Shown one piece after another: positions 2,915 through 10,610 of a DNA stretch of 64,000 nucleotides. Under the pieces are notes generated by a model. It had not been told where the DNA came from, ran no database searches, and was given only the letters and a program-made list of their open reading frames with translations. This DNA is from Sulfurimonas indica (GTDB lineage: Bacteria > Campylobacterota > Campylobacteria > Campylobacterales > Sulfurimonadaceae), in the NCBI RefSeq assembly GCF_009192995.1, contig NZ_SDID01000001.1, positions 1 through 64,000 of the forward strand, written 5' to 3'. Within the stretch, counting starts at the first letter, position 1. Each line of letters opens with the position of its first letter. The position numbers and the translations under genes were made by a program.

Positions 2915-3137
2915 TATCATTTCCTTCTGCTGCACACGAATAATTTCCATATGCTTTTTTTTGAACTTCTCTCCAGTTTTTATATACGTCATAGCTGTTG
3001 CCGCATACTCCCGCATCAGAATAATCGCAACTGTGCTCCGCACAATACGTTTCATTTTTCCCAACACCAATCCATGAACAGCCGCTAAAACTTAGTGTCA
3101 ATATAGCGGTGGTTATTGCAATATGTAATTTATTCAT
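2907..3137 (-). CDS. Small cysteine-rich lipoprotein, TraV N-terminal-like
   Basis: A 76-residue lipoprotein with signal peptide and lipobox (TLSFSGCSW). After the lipidated cysteine it reads GVGKNETYCAEHSC...GVCGNSYDVY, close to the G-x-G-E/K...C...C-x-S/N-x-x-x-V-Y pattern that follows the lipobox of TraV. It stops after about 50 more residues. Its start overlaps the end of traB by eight bases and its stop overlaps the start of the next lipoprotein gene, so all three are translated together. It probably supplies the outer-membrane-anchored, disulphide-containing part of the T4SS core complex. It could instead be an unrelated small lipoprotein. Confidence 0.5.
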   Translation of the reverse strand: MNKLHIAITTAILTLSFSGCSWIGVGKNETYCAEHSCDYSDAGVCGNSYDVYKNWREVQKKAYGNYSCAAEGNDNE

Positions 3138-4728
3138 CCTCTATGTCCTTTTCACTAAAATACTCCATATCAATTGGCTCATATTTGCTAAGTTGAAGCT
3201 TTTCTCCACCTTTGAAGGCTATTGTTACTTTTCTTCCAGCTCTGATAGATATAGTTGGATTCAGACTATTGAGCATTTTCATATAGTAATCAGAGAATTT
3301 TTTCAAAACTTCGCTTGTTCCTCTGCCTGCGCCTTGAATAAGCCCGCCGCTCATATATTGAGAATTCACGGCTGCCGGATTATCTCCAACTGGAATGACA
3401 ACATTTGTATTAGAGTTGCCAATAGCCATAGAGAGAGATTGAATCATACTCTCAACAATTGCCAAAGGTAAACCGGCCTTAATGATTTCTTTTTCTCTTG
3501 AAACCAATCGCCCTTTAATTCCATAATTTCCGTTCTCATCAAACACCCATCCTGCGATTTTTTGATCAATTTTATAGCTGCTACCATCCAAATCAGTAAT
3601 GTTGCATGAAATTTTAGAAAGACGAAGCTCTGCAGCCCTTTTACTTAAACTGCCTTTGGCTGTTGCAAGAATAATACAGCCGTCTATATTGACAGATGCA
3701 TCGTTGGCAATTAATTCATCCCCGTTAATGCGAATATAAATAGGTACCGCTTCGGAAGCATCATCTCCTTCTGTAAGGATTGGCATTTCTCCACCATTAA
3801 TAAGTAATCCTTTTGTGAAACCAGGCATAAGTGTAAAACTCGGCATAGCAACTGTATTGTTAATATCCTTAGTCGATTCACTGAATTCTTGTGTCTCATA
3901 ATCCATCGTATCGCTGTTTACTTCCACAAATGCATCTTCATAAATATCATCATCTTCTTTTTTTTGATTGCTATATAAAACTGCTGATTTTGCCTTTGAG
4001 CTTGTGTGCGTAAAATCTTTCTTCAAAGGCGGTAAATCTGGCAGATTGATTCCGTTTTTGGCACCGGTGTTTACATATTTAGTTTTTTTAACAATTTCTA
4101 AAATATCCTTTTTTTGACTGTTTATTTTTTTCTGCAACATGTTTTGCTGCTGCGTGGTCATATTAAGCCTGTTTATGATTTCATCTTTTGTTTTTGAAAA
4201 ATCTTTTTTCATTGACTGCAGCTCTTTAGTGATTGAAAGTGTGTTTTTTTGCAGTTTTTCCTCAACGAGAGTCACTGTTTTATTCATATCAGCCTGCAAA
4301 GATGTTTTTAACTCATTAACATCCTTTTTTAATCCTTTCATCTCCTGGTCTTTTAATACTCTCCACTGGAATGTTGTATCGACTGCTAATCCCATTTTTG
4401 TCGTATTATTATCTTCTACAGCAGACATGCGAATAGAGTCTTTTTGTAACATTTTGTACGTTTTATAAAAAACTACGCCAAAAAAGATTACCAATGGAAT
4501 AGTGATAAGAACCAATGTTGTCTTTTTTGTGATGTTTTTTTCTATATTTTTAGCCTGAGTGTTGAGAGATGTTAGGTTCTCAAGTTTATCCTCGTCGGCA
4601 TTTTTTTTATCCTCTTTCTCTTTTTTGTTTTTTAATTTTTCTAGGGTCTCTCCGCTTTTTTTCATTTTTAAATTGTCGGTAATATAAGAATGTAAATCAC
4701 CCATGCCAAAAGTAAATTTATTTTTCAT
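3130..4728 (-). CDS. traB: TraB/VirB10-like T4SS core protein
   Basis: A 532-residue protein with a basic cytoplasmic N-terminus, one transmembrane helix near residues 71-90 (TLVLITIPLVIFFGVVFYK), a long coiled-coil and proline-containing periplasmic linker (about 120-240) and a folded C-terminal domain. The C-terminal region has features of TraB/TrbI/VirB10: DASVNIDGCIILATAKGSLS, a glycine-rich PVGDNPAAVNS...GGLIQGAGRG segment and a final beta-rich part. TraB spans both membranes and couples the inner-membrane complex to the outer-membrane pore. Length fits the family (about 430-550). It lies four bases after traK, in the usual traE-traK-traB order. Confidence 0.8.
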   Translation of the reverse strand: MKNKFTFGMGDLHSYITDNLKMKKSGETLEKLKNKKEKEDKKNADEDKLENLTSLNTQAKNIEKNITKKTTLVLITIPLVIFFGVVFYKTYKMLQKDSIRMSAVEDNNTTKMGLAVDTTFQWRVLKDQEMKGLKKDVNELKTSLQADMNKTVTLVEEKLQKNTLSITKELQSMKKDFSKTKDEIINRLNMTTQQQNMLQKKINSQKKDILEIVKKTKYVNTGAKNGINLPDLPPLKKDFTHTSSKAKSAVLYSNQKKEDDDIYEDAFVEVNSDTMDYETQEFSESTKDINNTVAMPSFTLMPGFTKGLLINGGEMPILTEGDDASEAVPIYIRINGDELIANDASVNIDGCIILATAKGSLSKRAAELRLSKISCNITDLDGSSYKIDQKIAGWVFDENGNYGIKGRLVSREKEIIKAGLPLAIVESMIQSLSMAIGNSNTNVVIPVGDNPAAVNSQYMSGGLIQGAGRGTSEVLKKFSDYYMKMLNSLNPTISIRAGRKVTIAFKGGEKLQLSKYEPIDMEYFSEKDIEDE

Positions 4729-4731
4729 CTT

Positions 4732-5574
4732 TTACTCCGTCGCCGTTGGAGTTATTACGAACATTCTTGTTGCCTCACCTGACTCTAGTTCTCTGTTTTC
4801 TATAGATATTGCGTATGTGTTTTTAGAGGCAAACATTGGCTCGTTGAGACGCTGTGTGCTTTCTGATATATTTTCAACACTGTATTCAAGAGCGCTGTAT
4901 CTTTTGCCTATTAGCGTTTTTATTAAAACAAATTTTAAAGAATTTGAATTATATACCTGATGGTGTGTTTCAATTTTATACCCAGATGGTGTTTTGTTGT
5001 GATAAAGATACTGGATTAGTTTGCTGCATATCTTTTCATGAGAAATACCTTTTAGGGAGGTGTTTTTATTTTCTCTTTCTTGATAATCCACAAATTTCAA
5101 ATAGGTATCTGTATCTTTTTTATCCGCAGAAACTACGATGGTAATAAGTAGTGGATATTTTGAATATCCCCACACGATCAGTTGCGTTTTACCTATTTTG
5201 TATGGATAAAACTGTACGAAATTTTTACCCCATGTTGAGGCAAACGCTTTATTTTTTGGTTTATTTGTTTCTGTACCGTTTTTCTTCTTAAATTGATTAA
5301 GTGAAAAGAACTTTTTATTGTTTGTCCCTTGGTTTGCATTTGGTATAGATACTTTTTCTTTTAAAGGATTAAATTTTTTAGTTTTCTTTTTTATCTTTTT
5401 TTTGTAGACAAATGGAGAAAATCTTTTCTCTTTCACCTCAAAAGGGAATTCAAGTACACTAAACTCTTTAAGTGGTATTTTAATCTCTATTGTTTGGACC
5501 ATAGGGATATCTTTTGCGGACAAAATTCCTACTACTACAAAACTAGAAACAATCAGTGCCAAAATCTTCGACAT
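4732..5574 (-). CDS. traK: TraK-like secretin-type T4SS protein
   Basis: A 280-residue secreted protein with an N-terminal signal (ILALIVSSFVVVGILSAKD) followed by a beta-rich N-terminal domain (EIKIPLKEFSVLEFPFEV), a basic linker (about residues 55-105), and a segment with VQFYPYKIGKTQLIVWGYSKYPLLI, typical of the N-terminal secretin-like domain of TraK/VirB9-related proteins. The C-terminal part has ALEYSVENISESTQRLNE...AISIENRELESGEATRMFVIT, matching the late TraK segment. TraK forms the outer-membrane ring with TraV and TraB. It overlaps the traE gene by 32 bases. Placement between traE and traB supports the call. Confidence 0.75.
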   Translation of the reverse strand: MSKILALIVSSFVVVGILSAKDIPMVQTIEIKIPLKEFSVLEFPFEVKEKRFSPFVYKKKIKKKTKKFNPLKEKVSIPNANQGTNNKKFFSLNQFKKKNGTETNKPKNKAFASTWGKNFVQFYPYKIGKTQLIVWGYSKYPLLITIVVSADKKDTDTYLKFVDYQERENKNTSLKGISHEKICSKLIQYLYHNKTPSGYKIETHHQVYNSNSLKFVLIKTLIGKRYSALEYSVENISESTQRLNEPMFASKNTYAISIENRELESGEATRMFVITPTATE

Positions 5575-6148
5575 ACAAAACTCCTTTCACATAACGTAAA
5601 TCTACATCGTATTTACACTCTTTTTTGCTTTTTTCCTTGCTGATACTTTGAAACGCAATCCCGTTTACAGTAATTGTTGCACTTCGGATAATCCCTTTTG
5701 ACTCTATTACATTTGAAAGATTGGTATCTTCCGGAATAAATTTTTGTGACATTAAATTTTTACTTAACGTATTTGTAAAAATATCAATCTCTTTTTTCTT
5801 TTCCACAAAACGGGTAGGGCGCATCATTTTCTTAAGTAGTTGAACTTTCTTTCCAATGGTTTCATATGTAAAATTTGACAGCTCTTTTATTACATACTCT
5901 CCCCACATTCGATAGTAAACTTTATTTGCTCCATCTATGCCGGCTACAACAACTGGGGCATTTTTATAAATTAGCGTTGCGGGCAATTCAATATTCACTC
6001 GCGTTGTTTCCCTAATGCTCATAAAAGCAAAAGACAAAATAACAATTGCAACAGAGAGCATCACAACTATTCTCCATAAGTATTTGACAACAACTTTGTC
6101 TTTGTCGATAATTGATATAAATTCTTCACCTTTTAGTTTATCAGCCAC
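5543..6148 (-). CDS. traE: TraE-like T4SS inner-membrane protein
   Basis: A 201-residue protein with a short cytoplasmic N-terminus, one membrane helix at about residues 27-45 (WRIVVMLSVAIVILSFAFMSI) and a periplasmic domain, the VirB8/TraE topology. The segment MWGEYVIKELSNFTYETIGKKVQLLKKMM matches the conserved part of TraE, and the end contains the SKEKSKKECKYDVDLRYVKGVLYVEDF strand pattern. TraE nucleates assembly of the transfer channel at the inner membrane. It follows traL after 12 bases and overlaps traK, as in other F-type clusters. Confidence 0.8.
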   Translation of the reverse strand: MADKLKGEEFISIIDKDKVVVKYLWRIVVMLSVAIVILSFAFMSIRETTRVNIELPATLIYKNAPVVVAGIDGANKVYYRMWGEYVIKELSNFTYETIGKKVQLLKKMMRPTRFVEKKKEIDIFTNTLSKNLMSQKFIPEDTNLSNVIESKGIIRSATITVNGIAFQSISKEKSKKECKYDVDLRYVKGVLYVEDFGTDCF

Positions 6149-6160
6149 TAAAAATTCCTC

Positions 6161-6526
6161 CTATTCTATAAATAATTTTTCGTTTGGATTTGGATAGTAG
6201 TCATCTACATCCACATCCATTCTTTTTGCCTCTTCTTTAAATTCTTTTTCTTTTACCTTGTAGATATGCATGGTGTACAAAAGGTGCTTCAAAAACCCTT
6301 TTGGTGCTTCATCTTTAAACTTTGAGTAATAAAAAGCCGTAAAACCACCAATAAGCATACTTATAATAAAATCTGGTGCCGGTGGCAAAACAGAAGTTAA
6401 AGAAGATGCAAAAAACAGAACCAGTCCGACTGCAAAGAAGATCCCTATTGTGTCAATTTCAATTGAAACAAAAACTCTCGGTCTATTGAACCATTTTAAA
6501 AATCTAACTTTTGTATATTTAGCCAT
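6161..6526 (-). CDS. traL: TraL-like T4SS inner-membrane protein
   Basis: A 121-residue protein with the TraL pattern: a short basic N-terminus with FLKWFNRPRVFVSIEIDTIG, two adjacent hydrophobic segments (about 25-45 and 50-68) and a charged C-terminal tail containing FLKHLLYTMHIYK. TraL is the VirB3-like partner of the pilin assembly ATPase in the inner membrane. The gene sits between the pilin and traE, as in F-type operons. A hairpin in the 44-base gap before it may lower its expression relative to the pilin. Confidence 0.85.
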   Translation of the reverse strand: MAKYTKVRFLKWFNRPRVFVSIEIDTIGIFFAVGLVLFFASSLTSVLPPAPDFIISMLIGGFTAFYYSKFKDEAPKGFLKHLLYTMHIYKVKEKEFKEEAKRMDVDVDDYYPNPNEKLFIE

Positions 6527-6542
6527 TATTAAAAACCTTTAT

Positions 6543-6561
6543 TTCCCTCAAAGAGAGGGAA
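6543..6561 (-). promoter_or_regulatory. Intercistronic hairpin between pilin and traL
   Basis: TTCCCTC (6543-6549) and GAGGGAA (6555-6561) form a seven-base-pair stem with a five-base loop, extended by A/T pairs, just downstream of the pilin stop on the minus strand. No long U-run follows, so partial termination or protection of the pilin mRNA is more likely than a full stop. Function is inferred. Confidence 0.5.
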
Positions 6562-6570
6562 AAATAACAC

Positions 6571-6849
6571 TTAGAATGCAAATCCACTAAATGATGTAAC
6601 AAGTGAAGCTGCTCCACCGATAATAGCAGCAGAAATACCGCCGACAACAAGTGAAATTGTCCAATCTTTTGTTCTCATATATGTAATTGCTGCAGCAATT
6701 AAAACAAGAAACAAAATAACAGGCACCGCAAACTGCGTTGATTGATCAAGAAACGTTGTTTTGAATGCATCTATTGGTCCTGCTGCAAAAGAGTTTGTAG
6801 CCAAAGCTCCAAGAGCCAACATGAATAGAACCATTTTTTTTATAACCAT
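6571..6849 (-). CDS. Conjugative pilin (TraA/VirB2-like)
   Basis: A 92-residue protein with an N-terminal signal segment ending near NSFAA-GP (residue 24), then a mature peptide of about 69 residues with two hydrophobic helices (FAVPVILFLVLIAAAITYM and TISLVVGGISAAIIGGAASLV) joined by a short basic turn (RTKDW). Size, glycine/alanine-rich second helix and position directly before traL, traE, traK and traB are those of the pilin of F-type and VirB2-type systems. An AAAGGA site lies upstream. It is preceded by a tiny leader frame and followed by a hairpin, which fits high, separately tuned expression. Confidence 0.75.
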   Translation of the reverse strand: MVIKKMVLFMLALGALATNSFAAGPIDAFKTTFLDQSTQFAVPVILFLVLIAAAITYMRTKDWTISLVVGGISAAIIGGAASLVTSFSGFAF

Positions 6850-6862
6850 AAGAATCCTTTTT

Positions 6863-6928
6863 TTATCTTTTAAATATGAACAGAGTAGGAAAAAAATCTG
6901 GCGGTGATCTGTTATGTTTTTGATACAT
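6863..6928 (-). CDS. Possible 21-codon leader peptide before the pilin gene
   Basis: In the gap between the 296-residue membrane protein gene and the pilin there is a 21-codon frame, MYQKHNRSPPDFFPTLFIFKR, with a strong AAGGAG site nine bases before its ATG. It ends 13 bases before the pilin start. It may be a leader that couples or tunes pilin translation, or chance. No family is recognisable. Confidence 0.35.
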   Translation of the reverse strand: MYQKHNRSPPDFFPTLFIFKR

Positions 6929-6943
6929 TACTTTTTGCTCCTT

Positions 6944-7834
6944 TTAAAAGTCAAATTTTTCTCTTGCGAGATCCGCAGGATTTTTAAACTCTTTTTGCAT
7001 AGAAAACAGATTATCTTTATATGTTTGCTTGTATTTGTTGTAAACAAGATAGTTCACAACACTGTAAGAGAGTAAAAAAAGCAAAAAGAGTAGCAATAAT
7101 CCATTAAAGATAGTTTCAAATTGCGTCACAAAACTTATAAAATATGGTTTTGATACGACAACGGCCCACATCTTTTCAAGAAAACCCATTTTAAATTGAT
7201 AGCTCAAGATTTCATTTGCTAATTGCTGCCAGTCAACATGTGAAAAATAAACTAAAACTAAAGCTATTGTGACCGACCCAAGAATAAATTCATAGAAATG
7301 CCACGCAGTTCTTACAATTTTTATAAAACGTCCTGTTTCTTTTTCCCCGACTTTATGCCTATCAAGAGAGTAAACTATTCTTGCAACTTGAAAAACTGTA
7401 ATCTGCAGAAAAAACAATGAACCAATAATTCCTAAAACTACAGAAAAAGGCGCAATCATTAAATAGATAATGATTGCCAAAAAAATAGAAGTTATTCCTG
7501 TGCTGATCGTAGGAATAAGTCTAAAAAACAGATCAAAAAAGCCGAGTTCAGACATAGCGTAAGTGCTTTCCACAAAATCACTTTTGGAAATTTTCATTGA
7601 TTGCAATTCCGCTTCTATCTCTCTTATGTCATAATGAAAAAAAAGCCTTTTGAAAAAACCATGTCCTTTTGCGGCTTCTTGTGACCTGGTTGTCTGGTTG
7701 TAATCATGAGGAATAGAGGTCATAGTCCCTCTTGGATCCCCTTTAACCATTCCTTCTTTGTTAGAATAGCTTCCGTGTTGTCCATGTTGTCCAGTGCTGG
7801 TCATACTATTGTTTGGATTGCCACCCTGTGTCAT
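6944..7834 (-). CDS. Membrane protein of the tra operon, unknown function
   Basis: A 296-residue protein with a disordered, Gly/Ser/Asn/His-rich N-terminus (about residues 1-55), then hydrophobic segments near 105-125, 128-150, 175-198 and 240-265, and a lysine-rich tail. Its start overlaps the preceding stop as ATGA, so it is translationally coupled to the 69-residue gene. I do not recognise the family. Its position next to the pilin suggests a role in the transfer apparatus or in the recipient/donor cell envelope, but nothing in the sequence proves this. Confidence 0.75.
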   Translation of the reverse strand: MTQGGNPNNSMTSTGQHGQHGSYSNKEGMVKGDPRGTMTSIPHDYNQTTRSQEAAKGHGFFKRLFFHYDIREIEAELQSMKISKSDFVESTYAMSELGFFDLFFRLIPTISTGITSIFLAIIIYLMIAPFSVVLGIIGSLFFLQITVFQVARIVYSLDRHKVGEKETGRFIKIVRTAWHFYEFILGSVTIALVLVYFSHVDWQQLANEILSYQFKMGFLEKMWAVVVSKPYFISFVTQFETIFNGLLLLFLLFLLSYSVVNYLVYNKYKQTYKDNLFSMQKEFKNPADLAREKFDF

Positions 7835-8040
7835 TGTTCTATTCCTTCTAAATTGTTTTTAAATTCACTGATTAACTCAATGTATTTTTTTCTTATTGCA
7901 ATATATTGCGTTGCATTTATTTTATTTCTTGTATATTTTTTCTCTATCCGCGATATTGAATCCGCCACAAACAAAGAAAGACTCACAAGAACATTTGCCT
8001 CATAAATTTGATATTCAATACACTTGGTTCTCTTTTTCAA
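7831..8040 (-). CDS. 69-residue protein of unknown function
   Basis: A short, charged, helical protein (MKKRTKCIEYQIYEANVLVSL...). It overlaps the upstream YdjM-like gene and the downstream membrane-protein gene by four bases each (ATGA junctions), which supports it as a real member of the operon. It has no signal peptide or membrane segment and no motif I know. Confidence 0.6.
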   Translation of the reverse strand: MKKRTKCIEYQIYEANVLVSLSLFVADSISRIEKKYTRNKINATQYIAIRKKYIELISEFKNNLEGIEQ

Positions 8041-8579
8041 AATATCTCCAATGCATATGATTTAGCAATCAGCAGTGATATTGCCACATTCAATAAAAGC
8101 AAAAAGACAATAAAAATATGCTCTGCTATAGAATTGGTATAAAATCTCAACTGTTTTGGCAAGATTGCTATTTTTGTGTTTGGAAAAAACGGAAAGAAAA
8201 AACCATTGATTCCACCTTTTGTCAACATGTCTCCTAAATCATGCATCAATATTCCAAGCGAAAAACCATATAGGAAAAGTTTTGTGAAATAATCCTGCAC
8301 GAAATAAGTAGCCACAAATAGGGCTATCGGAACGAACAGGTAGTGCGTAAATGTTCTATGTTTAAAAACAGAACTCATAACTAAAGAAATTGCGTAAAGC
8401 CTTCTTCCTATATAGCTTTCGCTCTCATCAATATCTGGAGCAAGAGAGCCAAAAATTACACTAAAATAAAAAGCAATCAAATCTATCGTTTCAATATCAT
8501 TGCATGCTATATCTAAGCAATACTCAATTATTACAAGTGCAGAAACACTTGCTAATGCCATGTGTCCTTTTGCTGTCAC
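8037..8579 (-). CDS. YdjM/DUF457-type membrane-bound hydrolase-like protein
   Basis: A 180-residue membrane protein with the family pattern: an early histidine (MTAKGHMALASVSA), a GSLAPDIDESES motif at about residues 44-55, an arginine/histidine motif FKHRTFTHYL at about 72-81, and a second LMHDLGDMLTKGGI at about 111-124. These His/Asp residues are the expected metal site of the YdjM family (inner-membrane, metal-dependent hydrolase-like). Hydrophobic segments fill the rest. Its stop and start overlap the neighbours by four bases. A YdjM-type gene inside a conjugation operon is unusual and its substrate is unknown. Confidence 0.75.
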   Translation of the reverse strand: MTAKGHMALASVSALVIIEYCLDIACNDIETIDLIAFYFSVIFGSLAPDIDESESYIGRRLYAISLVMSSVFKHRTFTHYLFVPIALFVATYFVQDYFTKLFLYGFSLGILMHDLGDMLTKGGINGFFFPFFPNTKIAILPKQLRFYTNSIAEHIFIVFLLLLNVAISLLIAKSYALEIF

Positions 8580-9280
8580 AATTCTTCCTCTTTAGATGAA
8601 CCGGGTTTTATATATTTCTTCACATAAATAATTTCCTGTGTTCTGGCATTCTTATCAGCCAAAATCAAATCTTTTAAAAAATCATTTTTTATTTTCACTG
8701 GCGAGTGTTGAACATTGATTGTTTGATACACTGTATCGACAACATCTTTTGTTATTTCTCTGTTTCCATTCAAAGCCTCAGATGAAAGATAATCTTGAAG
8801 AAACTTTGCACTTATTTTTTCATGTGACATTTTTGCGGAATTGTGTACTAAACGCTTTACAGCTAGAGATTTGCCAAAATCATGAAGTAGGGCACACATA
8901 ACATTTATTCCGGCAGTGTTGCCTTGTTTTGAAAGTTTTAATGTTTCGTAAGCCACATTTGTACTGTGTGTAAATAAATCTATTTCATACAGCAGATCAT
9001 AATTGGAAAAAGTTTTTTTAAGATAGATGTCGTAATTTTTATCAACACTTGGAGTATTTGCAAAATCATACTCAATCATTAAATTGAGAATATTCTTAAT
9101 GGTTTTTTTAAATGACGGAGTTCTCTTTATAATATATTGAACCACATCCAATAGCTCCTCTTTTTCATTCTCTATTAAAGGAACATCAACAACATCCTCT
9201 ATGATGGGCGACAATGCTCTTCTTTCTTCAAGTTTTAAAAAAAGATTGTATATGTTTGCAATATCAATAAACTTATTCAC
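8576..9280 (-). CDS. HD-domain protein of the conjugative element
   Basis: A 234-residue soluble protein. The central part reads DLFTHSTNVAYETL (about 101-114) and VMCALLHDFGKSLAVKR (about 128-144), then SAKMSHEKISAKFLQDYL, the H...HD...H arrangement of HD-superfamily phosphohydrolases; a later QHSP motif with K and D residues (near 191-210, ending in LILADKNAR) completes it. Similar HD modules occur in the TraI_2-type relaxase proteins of integrative conjugative elements, but the DNA-nicking partner is not seen here. It starts 13 bases after the 58-residue gene. Enzymatic role and substrate are unknown. Confidence 0.7.
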   Translation of the reverse strand: MNKFIDIANIYNLFLKLEERRALSPIIEDVVDVPLIENEKEELLDVVQYIIKRTPSFKKTIKNILNLMIEYDFANTPSVDKNYDIYLKKTFSNYDLLYEIDLFTHSTNVAYETLKLSKQGNTAGINVMCALLHDFGKSLAVKRLVHNSAKMSHEKISAKFLQDYLSSEALNGNREITKDVVDTVYQTINVQHSPVKIKNDFLKDLILADKNARTQEIIYVKKYIKPGSSKEEEL

Positions 9281-9293
9281 TTTTTATCCTATA

Positions 9294-9470
9294 CTAAACT
9301 TTTGTTATTTGAACTTTGTGGTTACTAAGTGTTAAAACATTTGACGAACCCTTGATGAAAATATCAGTTGTGTTTTTATTGATTCGTACTTTTGTAAAAT
9401 CCACAATCTCGATTGAGAATGTCATGCCGAAAAAAATAAGTTTTTTTATCTCGTTTTTTAAAAGTTCCAT
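9294..9470 (-). CDS. 58-residue protein of unknown function
   Basis: The frame MELLKNEIKKLIFFGMTFSIEIVD... starts directly after the TAG stop of the BRO-N gene (TAG-ATG) and ends 13 bases before the HD gene, filling what would otherwise be a gap in a tightly packed operon. The predicted protein has alternating hydrophobic and charged residues with beta-strand character (VDFTKVRI, DIFIKGSSNVLTL). No family is recognised. Position is the main support. Confidence 0.55.
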   Translation of the reverse strand: MELLKNEIKKLIFFGMTFSIEIVDFTKVRINKNTTDIFIKGSSNVLTLSNHKVQITKV

Positions 9471-10379
9471 CTATTGCTCCTGTGTTGTATTCTCAGTAAT
9501 TATTCGTAACGCTTTTTCTGTCAAGGCCACATAATCAAAACTCGTGTTTTCCAAAACAAGCTTTTCAAACAATTCGTGTTTAAAAAGATTTTCTATTTTT
9601 TGTTTTATAAGCACAATAGAATCATTGCTAACTTCTTTGATCACATCTTCCATATTAAAGTAGTAATATATTGTTTCGTTTACGGTAATTTGTTTATTAT
9701 CTTTATTGGAAAGTAGGGCATAGATTGACAAAAAGAGTTCTATATCCTCTGTGTACATATCTACATCTTTTCTATAGAGAGTTGGGTTTTCATAACACAA
9801 CAATCGTTTTACGTTTTCAATCTCACTAAAAAGTCTTTCATTTGATTCTATATAGTTGTCGAATTTTGGAAGACTTTTAATATTGGCTTGAAAACCAATT
9901 AATCCTTCTGTCTGTTTTACAAGTTGTTCAACACTGCTACTAAGGCAATCAATAGCCATCTTTTGATCAAAAATATTACTTACCACAATCTCTTGTAATC
10001 TTTCAATTGCCTTGAAGATATGATCTTCAACAATTTCTATTTTTTTTGTTTCAGAAGAAACAGAATAAGTGCCTTGTTTTCTGATTGTCGGTAAAACTTC
10101 ACCCGTAACCCATTTTTTAAATTTTTTTGCTTCTGGTTTGTTGGAACGCAAGATGAGTGAATATAATCCAGATTCTGTTACTACCGACATATCTCTATTT
10201 TGACCTGATGAAAAAATTCTTTGTGTCAGCTTTTCATCATCATCTAATTTCGACAAGGTCATTGACACATCACTATAACCCAGCGCATCACAAATATCCT
10301 TCACCACAAACAATGGATTACCCGAATCACCTAATACACGAATTTCCGCATTTTCATTTTTAAATATTTGAGGTATCAT
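9471..10379 (-). CDS. BRO-N domain protein, first gene of the tra operon
   Basis: Start at 10379 is chosen because AAGGA lies seven bases upstream of MIPQIF; a frame extending to 10409 lacks this. Residues 1-105 form a BRO-N domain: NAEIRVLGDSGNPLFVVKDICDALGY, then VVTESGLYSLILRSNKPEAKKFKKWVTGEVLPTIRK, the signature of the phage antirepressor / baculovirus Bro family of DNA-binding domains. The remaining ~200 residues are helical and unlike known antirepressor C-termini. Being first in the operon, it probably regulates transfer genes. Such proteins are typical of phages and mobile elements. Confidence 0.8.
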   Translation of the reverse strand: MIPQIFKNENAEIRVLGDSGNPLFVVKDICDALGYSDVSMTLSKLDDDEKLTQRIFSSGQNRDMSVVTESGLYSLILRSNKPEAKKFKKWVTGEVLPTIRKQGTYSVSSETKKIEIVEDHIFKAIERLQEIVVSNIFDQKMAIDCLSSSVEQLVKQTEGLIGFQANIKSLPKFDNYIESNERLFSEIENVKRLLCYENPTLYRKDVDMYTEDIELFLSIYALLSNKDNKQITVNETIYYYFNMEDVIKEVSNDSIVLIKQKIENLFKHELFEKLVLENTSFDYVALTEKALRIITENTTQEQ

Positions 10380-10480
10380 ATTTTTTTCCTTGAGGATTTT
10401 ATTAAACATAAAATATTTCTTATAAATTTATAATAACTATATTTATTAAGTTTAGAAGCTATTTTAATGATATAATTGCG

Positions 10481-10610
10481 TATTCTAATAGGGTAAAAAT
10501 ATTTTTCAAGAGAATTTACATTATGTTAACCAATAAGAATTTATAACATGAATGTACTATACGAAAAAGCGTATCCACTCTTAATGTATCTTACCCTATA
10601 CTTTAGAATA
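10481..10610. repeat. Inverted repeat pair TATTCTAA..TAGGGTAA in the divergent intergenic region
   Basis: TATTCTAATAGGGTAA at 10481-10496 recurs in inverted form at 10591-10610 as TATTCTAAAGTATAGGGTAA (minus strand), so two blocks of 8 bases match with a 4-base insertion. The pair lies in the 245-base gap between the BRO-N gene (minus) and the 67-residue gene (plus). Possible regulator sites or element-end sequence; between them is also a small ATACG/CGTAT hairpin (10561 region). Nothing else is visible in the gap. Confidence 0.5.

Follow-up and report, generated by a model that had tools for sequence, protein, structure and literature searches.

Within a window of 64,000 nucleotides (nt) of Sulfurimonas indica, the whole stretch of DNA that was analysed (assembly GCF_009192995.1, contig NZ_SDID01000001.1, positions 1 to 64,000), we find four genes directly upstream of the pilin gene of an F-type type IV secretion system (T4SS). 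They encode an HD-domain phosphohydrolase, a predicted YdjM-family membrane metallohydrolase, a protein of 69 amino acids (aa) and a 296-aa membrane protein, and they form an accessory block that recurs at this position in an F-type (MPF_F) T4SS lineage of Campylobacterota. At the window locus the block lies in a chromosomal island, at the end next to dif. It is part of a distinct F-type lineage with a TraC motor ATPase fused to an EAL domain, and its genomic context gives good support for a function in transfer. That the block serves DNA transfer and not defence is, in our judgement, very probable.

The HD protein was searched against 397 genomes of the phylum, which gave 12 matches at E<=1e-6 including the window's own genome (G000), and an alignment of HD sequences was searched against genome contigs, which gave 9 loci. 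The neighbourhoods of the matches were compared with the window proteins, with 13 other loci in all. The order HD-YdjM-small protein-membrane protein-pilin-TraL-TraE-TraK is identical in genome G343. It is also found in five Helicobacter-type loci (L018, L021, L025, L026 and L027), some small open reading frames (ORFs) being too diverged for BLAST, and is kept in L019, where the membrane protein and pilin were assigned by place and profile. Because this order recurs in diverged elements it is beyond chance. HD, the small protein, the membrane protein, pilin, TraL and TraE are present on plasmid pAMYT of Malaciobacter mytili (genome G348). Two more block carriers come from the genome contigs, namely L125, a metagenome-assembled genome (MAG) of Sulfurimonas sp. 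KA11, and L122, whose HD protein is 41% identical to that of the window and whose label as a Gracilibacteria MAG is probably due to misbinning. In genomes G206 and G330 the HD domain is fused to two N-terminal transmembrane (TM) helices and adjoins the coupling-protein gene, in G330 also TraU, as read from the sequence. A truncated HD gene of Sulfurospirillum sp. (G306, L024:9255-10018), accompanied by a small upstream ORF and by no other block genes, is the remnant of a lost element. No match was obtained when genome contigs were searched with the membrane protein alone, and two scans of viral contigs gave no relative of the block proteins.

A first-pass annotation of this DNA had described six genes at 6944-10379 as one module, and all six ORFs are indeed present, on the minus strand, with Bro-N, HD and YdjM over the Pfam cut-offs. 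The first gene of the operon encodes a BRO-N (phage antirepressor-type) protein of 302 aa (9471..10379; Bro-N 87.4 bits, cut-off 25.6; PHROG anti-repressor 1e-49), or of 312 aa if started at the upstream ATG at 10409. It is followed by genes for a 58-aa protein (9294..9470), the HD protein (8576..9280, 234 aa; PF01966 25.2 bits, cut-off 22), YdjM (8037..8579, 180 aa; PF04307 70.0 bits, cut-off 29), the soluble 69-aa protein with a TTG start (7831..8040) and the membrane protein (6944..7834). Above cut-off, the 58-aa, 69-aa and 296-aa proteins have no Pfam match; SLATT_4, at 18.9 bits (cut-off 55), was rejected for the 69-aa protein. This protein is positionally conserved, with homologues in L122 (1e-15) and L020 (6e-8). 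ORFs similar in size to the 58-aa gene lie upstream of HD in L122, pAMYT and L020, with weak likeness and no BLAST match.

The genes had been thought to be coupled throughout by ATGA or TAG-ATG junctions. This holds in part: 4 of the 5 junctions are coupled, TAG-ATG between BRO-N and the 58-aa gene and 4-nt overlaps for HD/YdjM (GTGA), YdjM/69-aa gene (TTGA) and 69-aa gene/membrane gene (ATGA, the only literal case), but a 13-nt gap without overlap separates the 58-aa gene from HD. Across the loci HD and YdjM overlap by 4 nt in 7 of 10 pairs. The block stands directly upstream of the pilin gene, as stated, but does not run straight into it: a gap of 94 nt intervenes and contains a 21-codon ORF with a good Shine-Dalgarno-like ribosome-binding site (6863..6928, minus strand). 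As for a unit for mating, the HD, YdjM, small and membrane proteins travel with tra genes. BRO-N has no homologue in any of the 13 other loci and is a local addition outside the conserved block, so that the gene set recurs in other Campylobacterota elements (Sulfurimonas, Helicobacter species, pAMYT and others) as four genes without BRO-N. An occurrence mostly apart from tra clusters, which would have spoken against the module, was not found for the HD and membrane proteins; YdjM-family genes are also seen elsewhere, on plasmids where no tra genes are annotated in the vicinity and, in Marinobacter sp. SBY-1, about 31 kb from traC.

The membrane protein ties the block to one type of T4SS. In pAMYT and in S. 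indica, TraC is fused to a C-terminal EAL domain, which scores over the Pfam cut-off in both; in S. indica the 1138-aa protein is encoded on contig C26 (L069:4483-7899). Among the 397 genomes TraC is found in 25, with open frames of 1142-1207 aa including EAL in 9 and of 574-955 aa in the other 16. The profile of the membrane protein (A2) matches 11 genomes, and the 9 without stops are exactly the 9 TraC-EAL genomes. Eight of these matches span the whole profile and one (G385) covers positions 42-288; the weak matches in G248 and G482 are interrupted by stops and were left out of the member count. None of the 16 genomes with unfused TraC has a full-length membrane protein. The chance that the two sets of nine coincide is 5e-7 if the 25 genomes are independent; since the genomes are related, this value is a guide only. 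Of 4289 records of a plasmid collection that match the fused TraC, pAMYT is the only one whose match spans 80% or more of the protein, EAL part included. The second Asp of the DDFG motif and the motif following it are lost from the EAL domain in all 8 TraC sequences that were aligned, which do not include that of the ninth genome, G364. Because it is catalytically degenerate, this domain is probably a receptor, with putative binding of cyclic di-GMP (c-di-GMP). Among the titles and abstracts listed in searches of open-licence literature, no report of a TraC-EAL fusion or of an HD-YdjM block in tra clusters was seen. The membrane protein itself has 3-4 TM helices and a long disordered N-terminus according to a TM scan; the mean pLDDT of its structure model is 58, and the best match of PDB sequences to the profiles of this protein and of YdjM has an E-value of 0.27.

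The right border of the island is the chromosomal dif site. A 28-mer on the plus strand (10504..10531) differs by one base from the dif sequence published for Sulfurimonas denitrificans (cited from part of PMC2731167). Of 19 other loci of the genus, 15 carry it with no more than one mismatch, as does a longer G031 stretch; 200 shuffles of the window gave at best 7 mismatches (mean 10). RNase P RNA flanks dif in L132, L134 and L137 and does not in the window locus and in L125, as expected if an island intervenes. In L125 (dif at 6307, 0 mismatches) and L122 (at 96, 2 mismatches), too, the HD block adjoins dif, and three different elements thus carry the block at a dif border. In the window the distance from dif to the start of BRO-N is about 125 nt, or about 95 nt if the upstream ATG is used. 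Such a border at chromosomal dif is a trait of integrative mobile elements exploiting Xer (IMEX). Among these, the gonococcal genetic island is likewise an F-like T4SS island at dif, but it has a TraI relaxase, and the HD-YdjM block is not mentioned in the portions of the two papers on which this comparison draws (PMC4207684, PMC5357621). Contig C1 begins with the window, and the island is therefore cut at window position 1. As the contig stops within the island, a single dif copy is seen and the other border lies beyond the contig end. The other tra genes found lie on contig C26, in the pieces of which no second dif-like site with 8 or fewer mismatches occurs. A promoter scan gave a TTGAAA/TAGAAT site overlapping dif, with fewer sites in total than the shuffle mean. 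In L125 a Rep_3-type replication initiator (6443-7201) lies between dif and the HD block; the data suggest that this element is an integrated plasmid.

Downstream of the block, all on the minus strand, follow a TraA/TrbC-like pilin (6571..6849; TIGR02758 20.6 bits, below the cut-off of 76.55, with homologues in place in other loci), TraL (6161..6526; PF07178 20.9 bits, below the cut-off of 24.4, with homologues in other loci), TraE (5543..6148; PF05309 41.5 bits, over cut-off), TraK (4732..5574; TIGR02756 1e-9, below the curated cut-off) and a TraB/VirB10-like protein (3130..4728; 2.7e-78 to the TrbI/VirB10 family protein of pAMYT). TraC_F_IV and the TraG P-loop ATPase, which mark MPF_F, score 110 and 108 bits on contig C26 and 80 and 112 bits in pAMYT. 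As in F and pCAR1, both MPF_F systems, TraA/L/E/K/B/V/C/G-type genes stand in F order with a coupling protein, and TraU and TraH are found in pAMYT. Unlike these systems, the elements described here have the HD-YdjM-small-membrane block upstream of the pilin, a degenerate EAL domain on TraC, a bpMoxR ATPase beside the coupling protein and none of the common relaxases searched. The bpMoxR-type AAA ATPase adjoins TraD at L003:8025-9389 (pAMYT) and L069:9856-11193 (S. indica). Membrane-type proteins with an HExxH-like motif follow TraK or adjoin YdjM in L021 (14247-14807), L019 (14265-14831) and L022 (2481-2990); those of L021 and L022 have weak DUF3267/M50B matches, and all three are candidate membrane proteases by motif. 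Short tandem peptide-repeat ORFs were noticed near tra genes at L069:3540-4070 (SRGYKSL) and L125:7198-7602 (KNITHLR).

The HD protein carries the H...HD...D signature of its superfamily, with a ligand pattern of H105, H133-D134, H153, H192 and D209. The residues H105, H133-D134 and H153 are present in 13 of 13 aligned sequences, and H192 and D209 in all 12 that reach them. Its AlphaFold model (pLDDT 76, pTM 0.74) has an HD fold. The c-di-GMP phosphodiesterases of the HD-GYP type have the motif HHExxDGxGYP; in 8 aligned orthologues of the HD protein no GYP follows the [HQN]H pair, while the pair itself is present in all homologues. In YdjM, H6, D49, D51, E52, H74, H79, H113 and D117 are invariant in 10 of 10 aligned sequences. 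YdjM of E. coli is a LexA-regulated inner membrane protein. The window protein shares with it the family (PF04307) match over cut-off, here with invariant metal-type residues, and differs in being part of a tra operon and translationally overlapped with HD. Against the zinc-dependent phospholipase C family PF00882 (cut-off 26.8) the window YdjM reaches 12.9 bits, below the cut-off, as is YdjM of plasmid pSTJ2 with 19.9 bits (7e-4). F pili have been described as stoichiometric polymers of pilin and phosphatidylglycerol with one phospholipid per pilin (part of PMC5018250), and VirJ, a T4SS-linked lipid hydrolase, as supporting transfer (part of PMC13135905). These three points support, and do not show, a lipid role of YdjM; lipid or nucleotide chemistry of the block proteins is what we infer.

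Enzymes of second-messenger turnover are encoded on the same elements. On contig C26 a stand-alone EAL protein (L069:14560-15267), in which the usual motifs are conserved, lies beside a DUF87 ATPase and a topoisomerase, pAMYT has a GGDEF-EAL hybrid, and in G343 a 993-aa topoisomerase-GGDEF fusion with GGEEF is encoded inside the tra cluster (L070:11056-14037). These EAL and GGDEF enzymes are active-looking. A related arrangement is found on the betaproteobacterial plasmid pSTJ2 of Sulfuricystis multivorans, which has the order traD, phospholipase-D family gene, DUF4400, EAL, ydjM, hypothetical, transglycosylase, OmpA, hypothetical, traA, traL; the phospholipase-D family gene thus stands two genes before EAL. 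As in the window, ydjM lies upstream of traA in an F-type cluster and overlaps a second-messenger-type gene; in contrast to the window, this gene (L171:7357-8504) encodes EAL in the place of HD, and tblastn found no homologue of the 296-aa membrane protein. We read this single case as a replacement of HD and EAL for each other beside ydjM. The view that such genes are foreign to known F-type cassettes consequently holds for the well-known ones and has an exception in the EAL-YdjM pair of pSTJ2. SXT/R391 elements also combine conjugation with c-di-GMP enzymes (dgcK/dgcL; part of PMC10672970), but there the diguanylate cyclase genes are cargo, while in the elements described here the TraC motor itself bears EAL, and a topoisomerase bears GGDEF.

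Our tentative explanation, which we regard as possible but less likely than not, is that the block links the assembly of pili with a nucleotide second messenger and with the inner membrane. The EAL domain of TraC would act as a receptor, probably for c-di-GMP, and the membrane protein would be the inner-membrane partner of TraC-EAL near TraA/TraL. The HD protein may remove the signal or a related nucleotide, as a phosphodiesterase or nucleotidase. YdjM, embedded in the membrane, may be a metallohydrolase whose target is a lipid head group or the lipids around the pilin. In a more far-reaching and rather doubtful form, conjugation would be gated directly by the second messenger: the TraC/VirB4 motor would itself carry a cyclic-dinucleotide receptor, the element would bring along the enzymes for making and hydrolysing the messenger (topoisomerase-GGDEF, stand-alone EAL, HD), and the HD-YdjM-membrane block would relay the signal to pilus assembly at the inner membrane. 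Several observations weigh against the coupling to a second messenger. The HD protein has no GYP motif, and its nearest solved relatives by sequence are Cas3-HD nucleases (4e-4). YdjM is absent from the entire pAMYT plasmid. HD (G206, G330) and YdjM (G206) also sit in F-type clusters with TraC lacking EAL, so that the membrane protein alone goes together with the EAL fusion; moreover, the 9 co-occurring genomes are related and do not represent 9 independent events. No extra GGDEF/EAL enzyme was seen in the Helicobacter element regions viewed, which were not scanned gene by gene, and outside the phylum the EAL-YdjM pair is known from one plasmid only.

The Cas3-HD match leads to another explanation of the block, in which HD would be a nuclease of DNA or RNA, akin to Cas3-HD or YhaM. 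It would trim or remove nucleic acid at the transfer channel, and YdjM and the membrane protein would provide its platform in the membrane. Cas3-HD is the best match in a profile search of PDB sequences, a weak one of 23 bits, and the two share the spacing HD...H..SA. The best neighbour of the HD model in VIA-align is YhaM (Z 13.6, 169 aligned residues, root-mean-square deviation 4.2), a 3'-5' exonuclease, and the TM-anchored HD proteins adjoin the coupling protein in G206 and TraU plus the coupling protein in G330. However, many generic HD proteins follow closely behind YhaM, and for helical folds a Z of about 13 does not decide the matter; Foldseek with the HD model gave nothing at E<=0.001, and in profile-profile comparison (hhalign) the match to Cas3-HD extends over 20 columns only. 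We consider a nuclease unlikely on balance. The hhalign comparison, which covered MobH, Cas3-HD and dGTPase only and left out HD-GYP, PgpH and other HD families, was best for MobH (probability 90.5, score 52.8, 89 columns including H, HD and the next H), ahead of Cas3-HD (39.5) and dGTPase (32.1). HD could accordingly be a compact MOBH-like relaxase, i.e. the transfer nickase of an element class lacking every common relaxase, and in G206 and G330 its place beside the coupling protein resembles mobH-traD in pCAR1. Relaxases were searched in 11 genomes (all HD-protein genomes except G306) with TraI_2 (PF07514), Relaxase (PF03432) and TrwC, leaving out MOBQ, MOBV, MOBT and others. TraI_2 (E<=0.1) and TrwC matched in 0 of 11, and PF03432 in 4, on contigs other than those with the tra genes found. 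G000, G343 and G348 lack all three genome-wide despite a T4SS and coupling protein, with other relaxase families not searched. Yet MobH and Cas3-HD, as a control, match each other with a score of 46.7 (probability 80%), so that much of the match is superfamily background, and the probability of 90.5% was obtained with an alignment of six MobH sequences against 4% with a single one. With the MOBH relaxases HD shares the superfamily core; it lacks the triple His that precedes the first ligand helix in 6 of 6 MobH sequences as well as the C-terminal relaxase part, and it is not matched by the TraI_2 model. N-terminal TM helices in two homologues would also be odd for a piloted relaxase. This role therefore appears improbable.

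There are two further explanations. BRO-N, HD and the small proteins might be purely regulatory, a switch for tra transcription: BRO-N is first in the operon and close to dif, and in the Helicobacter locus L018 a helix-turn-helix (HTH)-like protein precedes HD (HTH_17 18.8 bits, below the cut-off of 27). Neither BRO-N nor HTH proteins are conserved across the set, though, nor is YdjM or the membrane protein a regulator by family, which leaves little likelihood for a switch. Least probable is that the block is cargo for anti-phage or element defence, lodged in the tra operon, a role that the first-pass annotation had offered beside mating. HD proteins occur in defence systems, and the phage-like BRO-N would fit. 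PADLOC, however, gives weak Cas3-HD matches for the HD protein (5e-4) and nothing for the other proteins, and a conserved order with tra genes and an exact co-occurrence with one type of TraC are unexpected of cargo; the proposal finds no support here.

What had been an odd list of genes becomes a defined and testable accessory module of one conjugation lineage, tied to a T4SS motor with a built-in, putatively signal-binding domain. The locus is also a case of F-type islands at dif in Campylobacterota, and of elements without a common relaxase among TraI_2, PF03432 and TrwC. The fused domain hints that these bacteria may turn gene transfer on and off via an internal signal molecule. If the binding of c-di-GMP is true, the machine itself would connect the biofilm/motility switch with the decision to transfer DNA.

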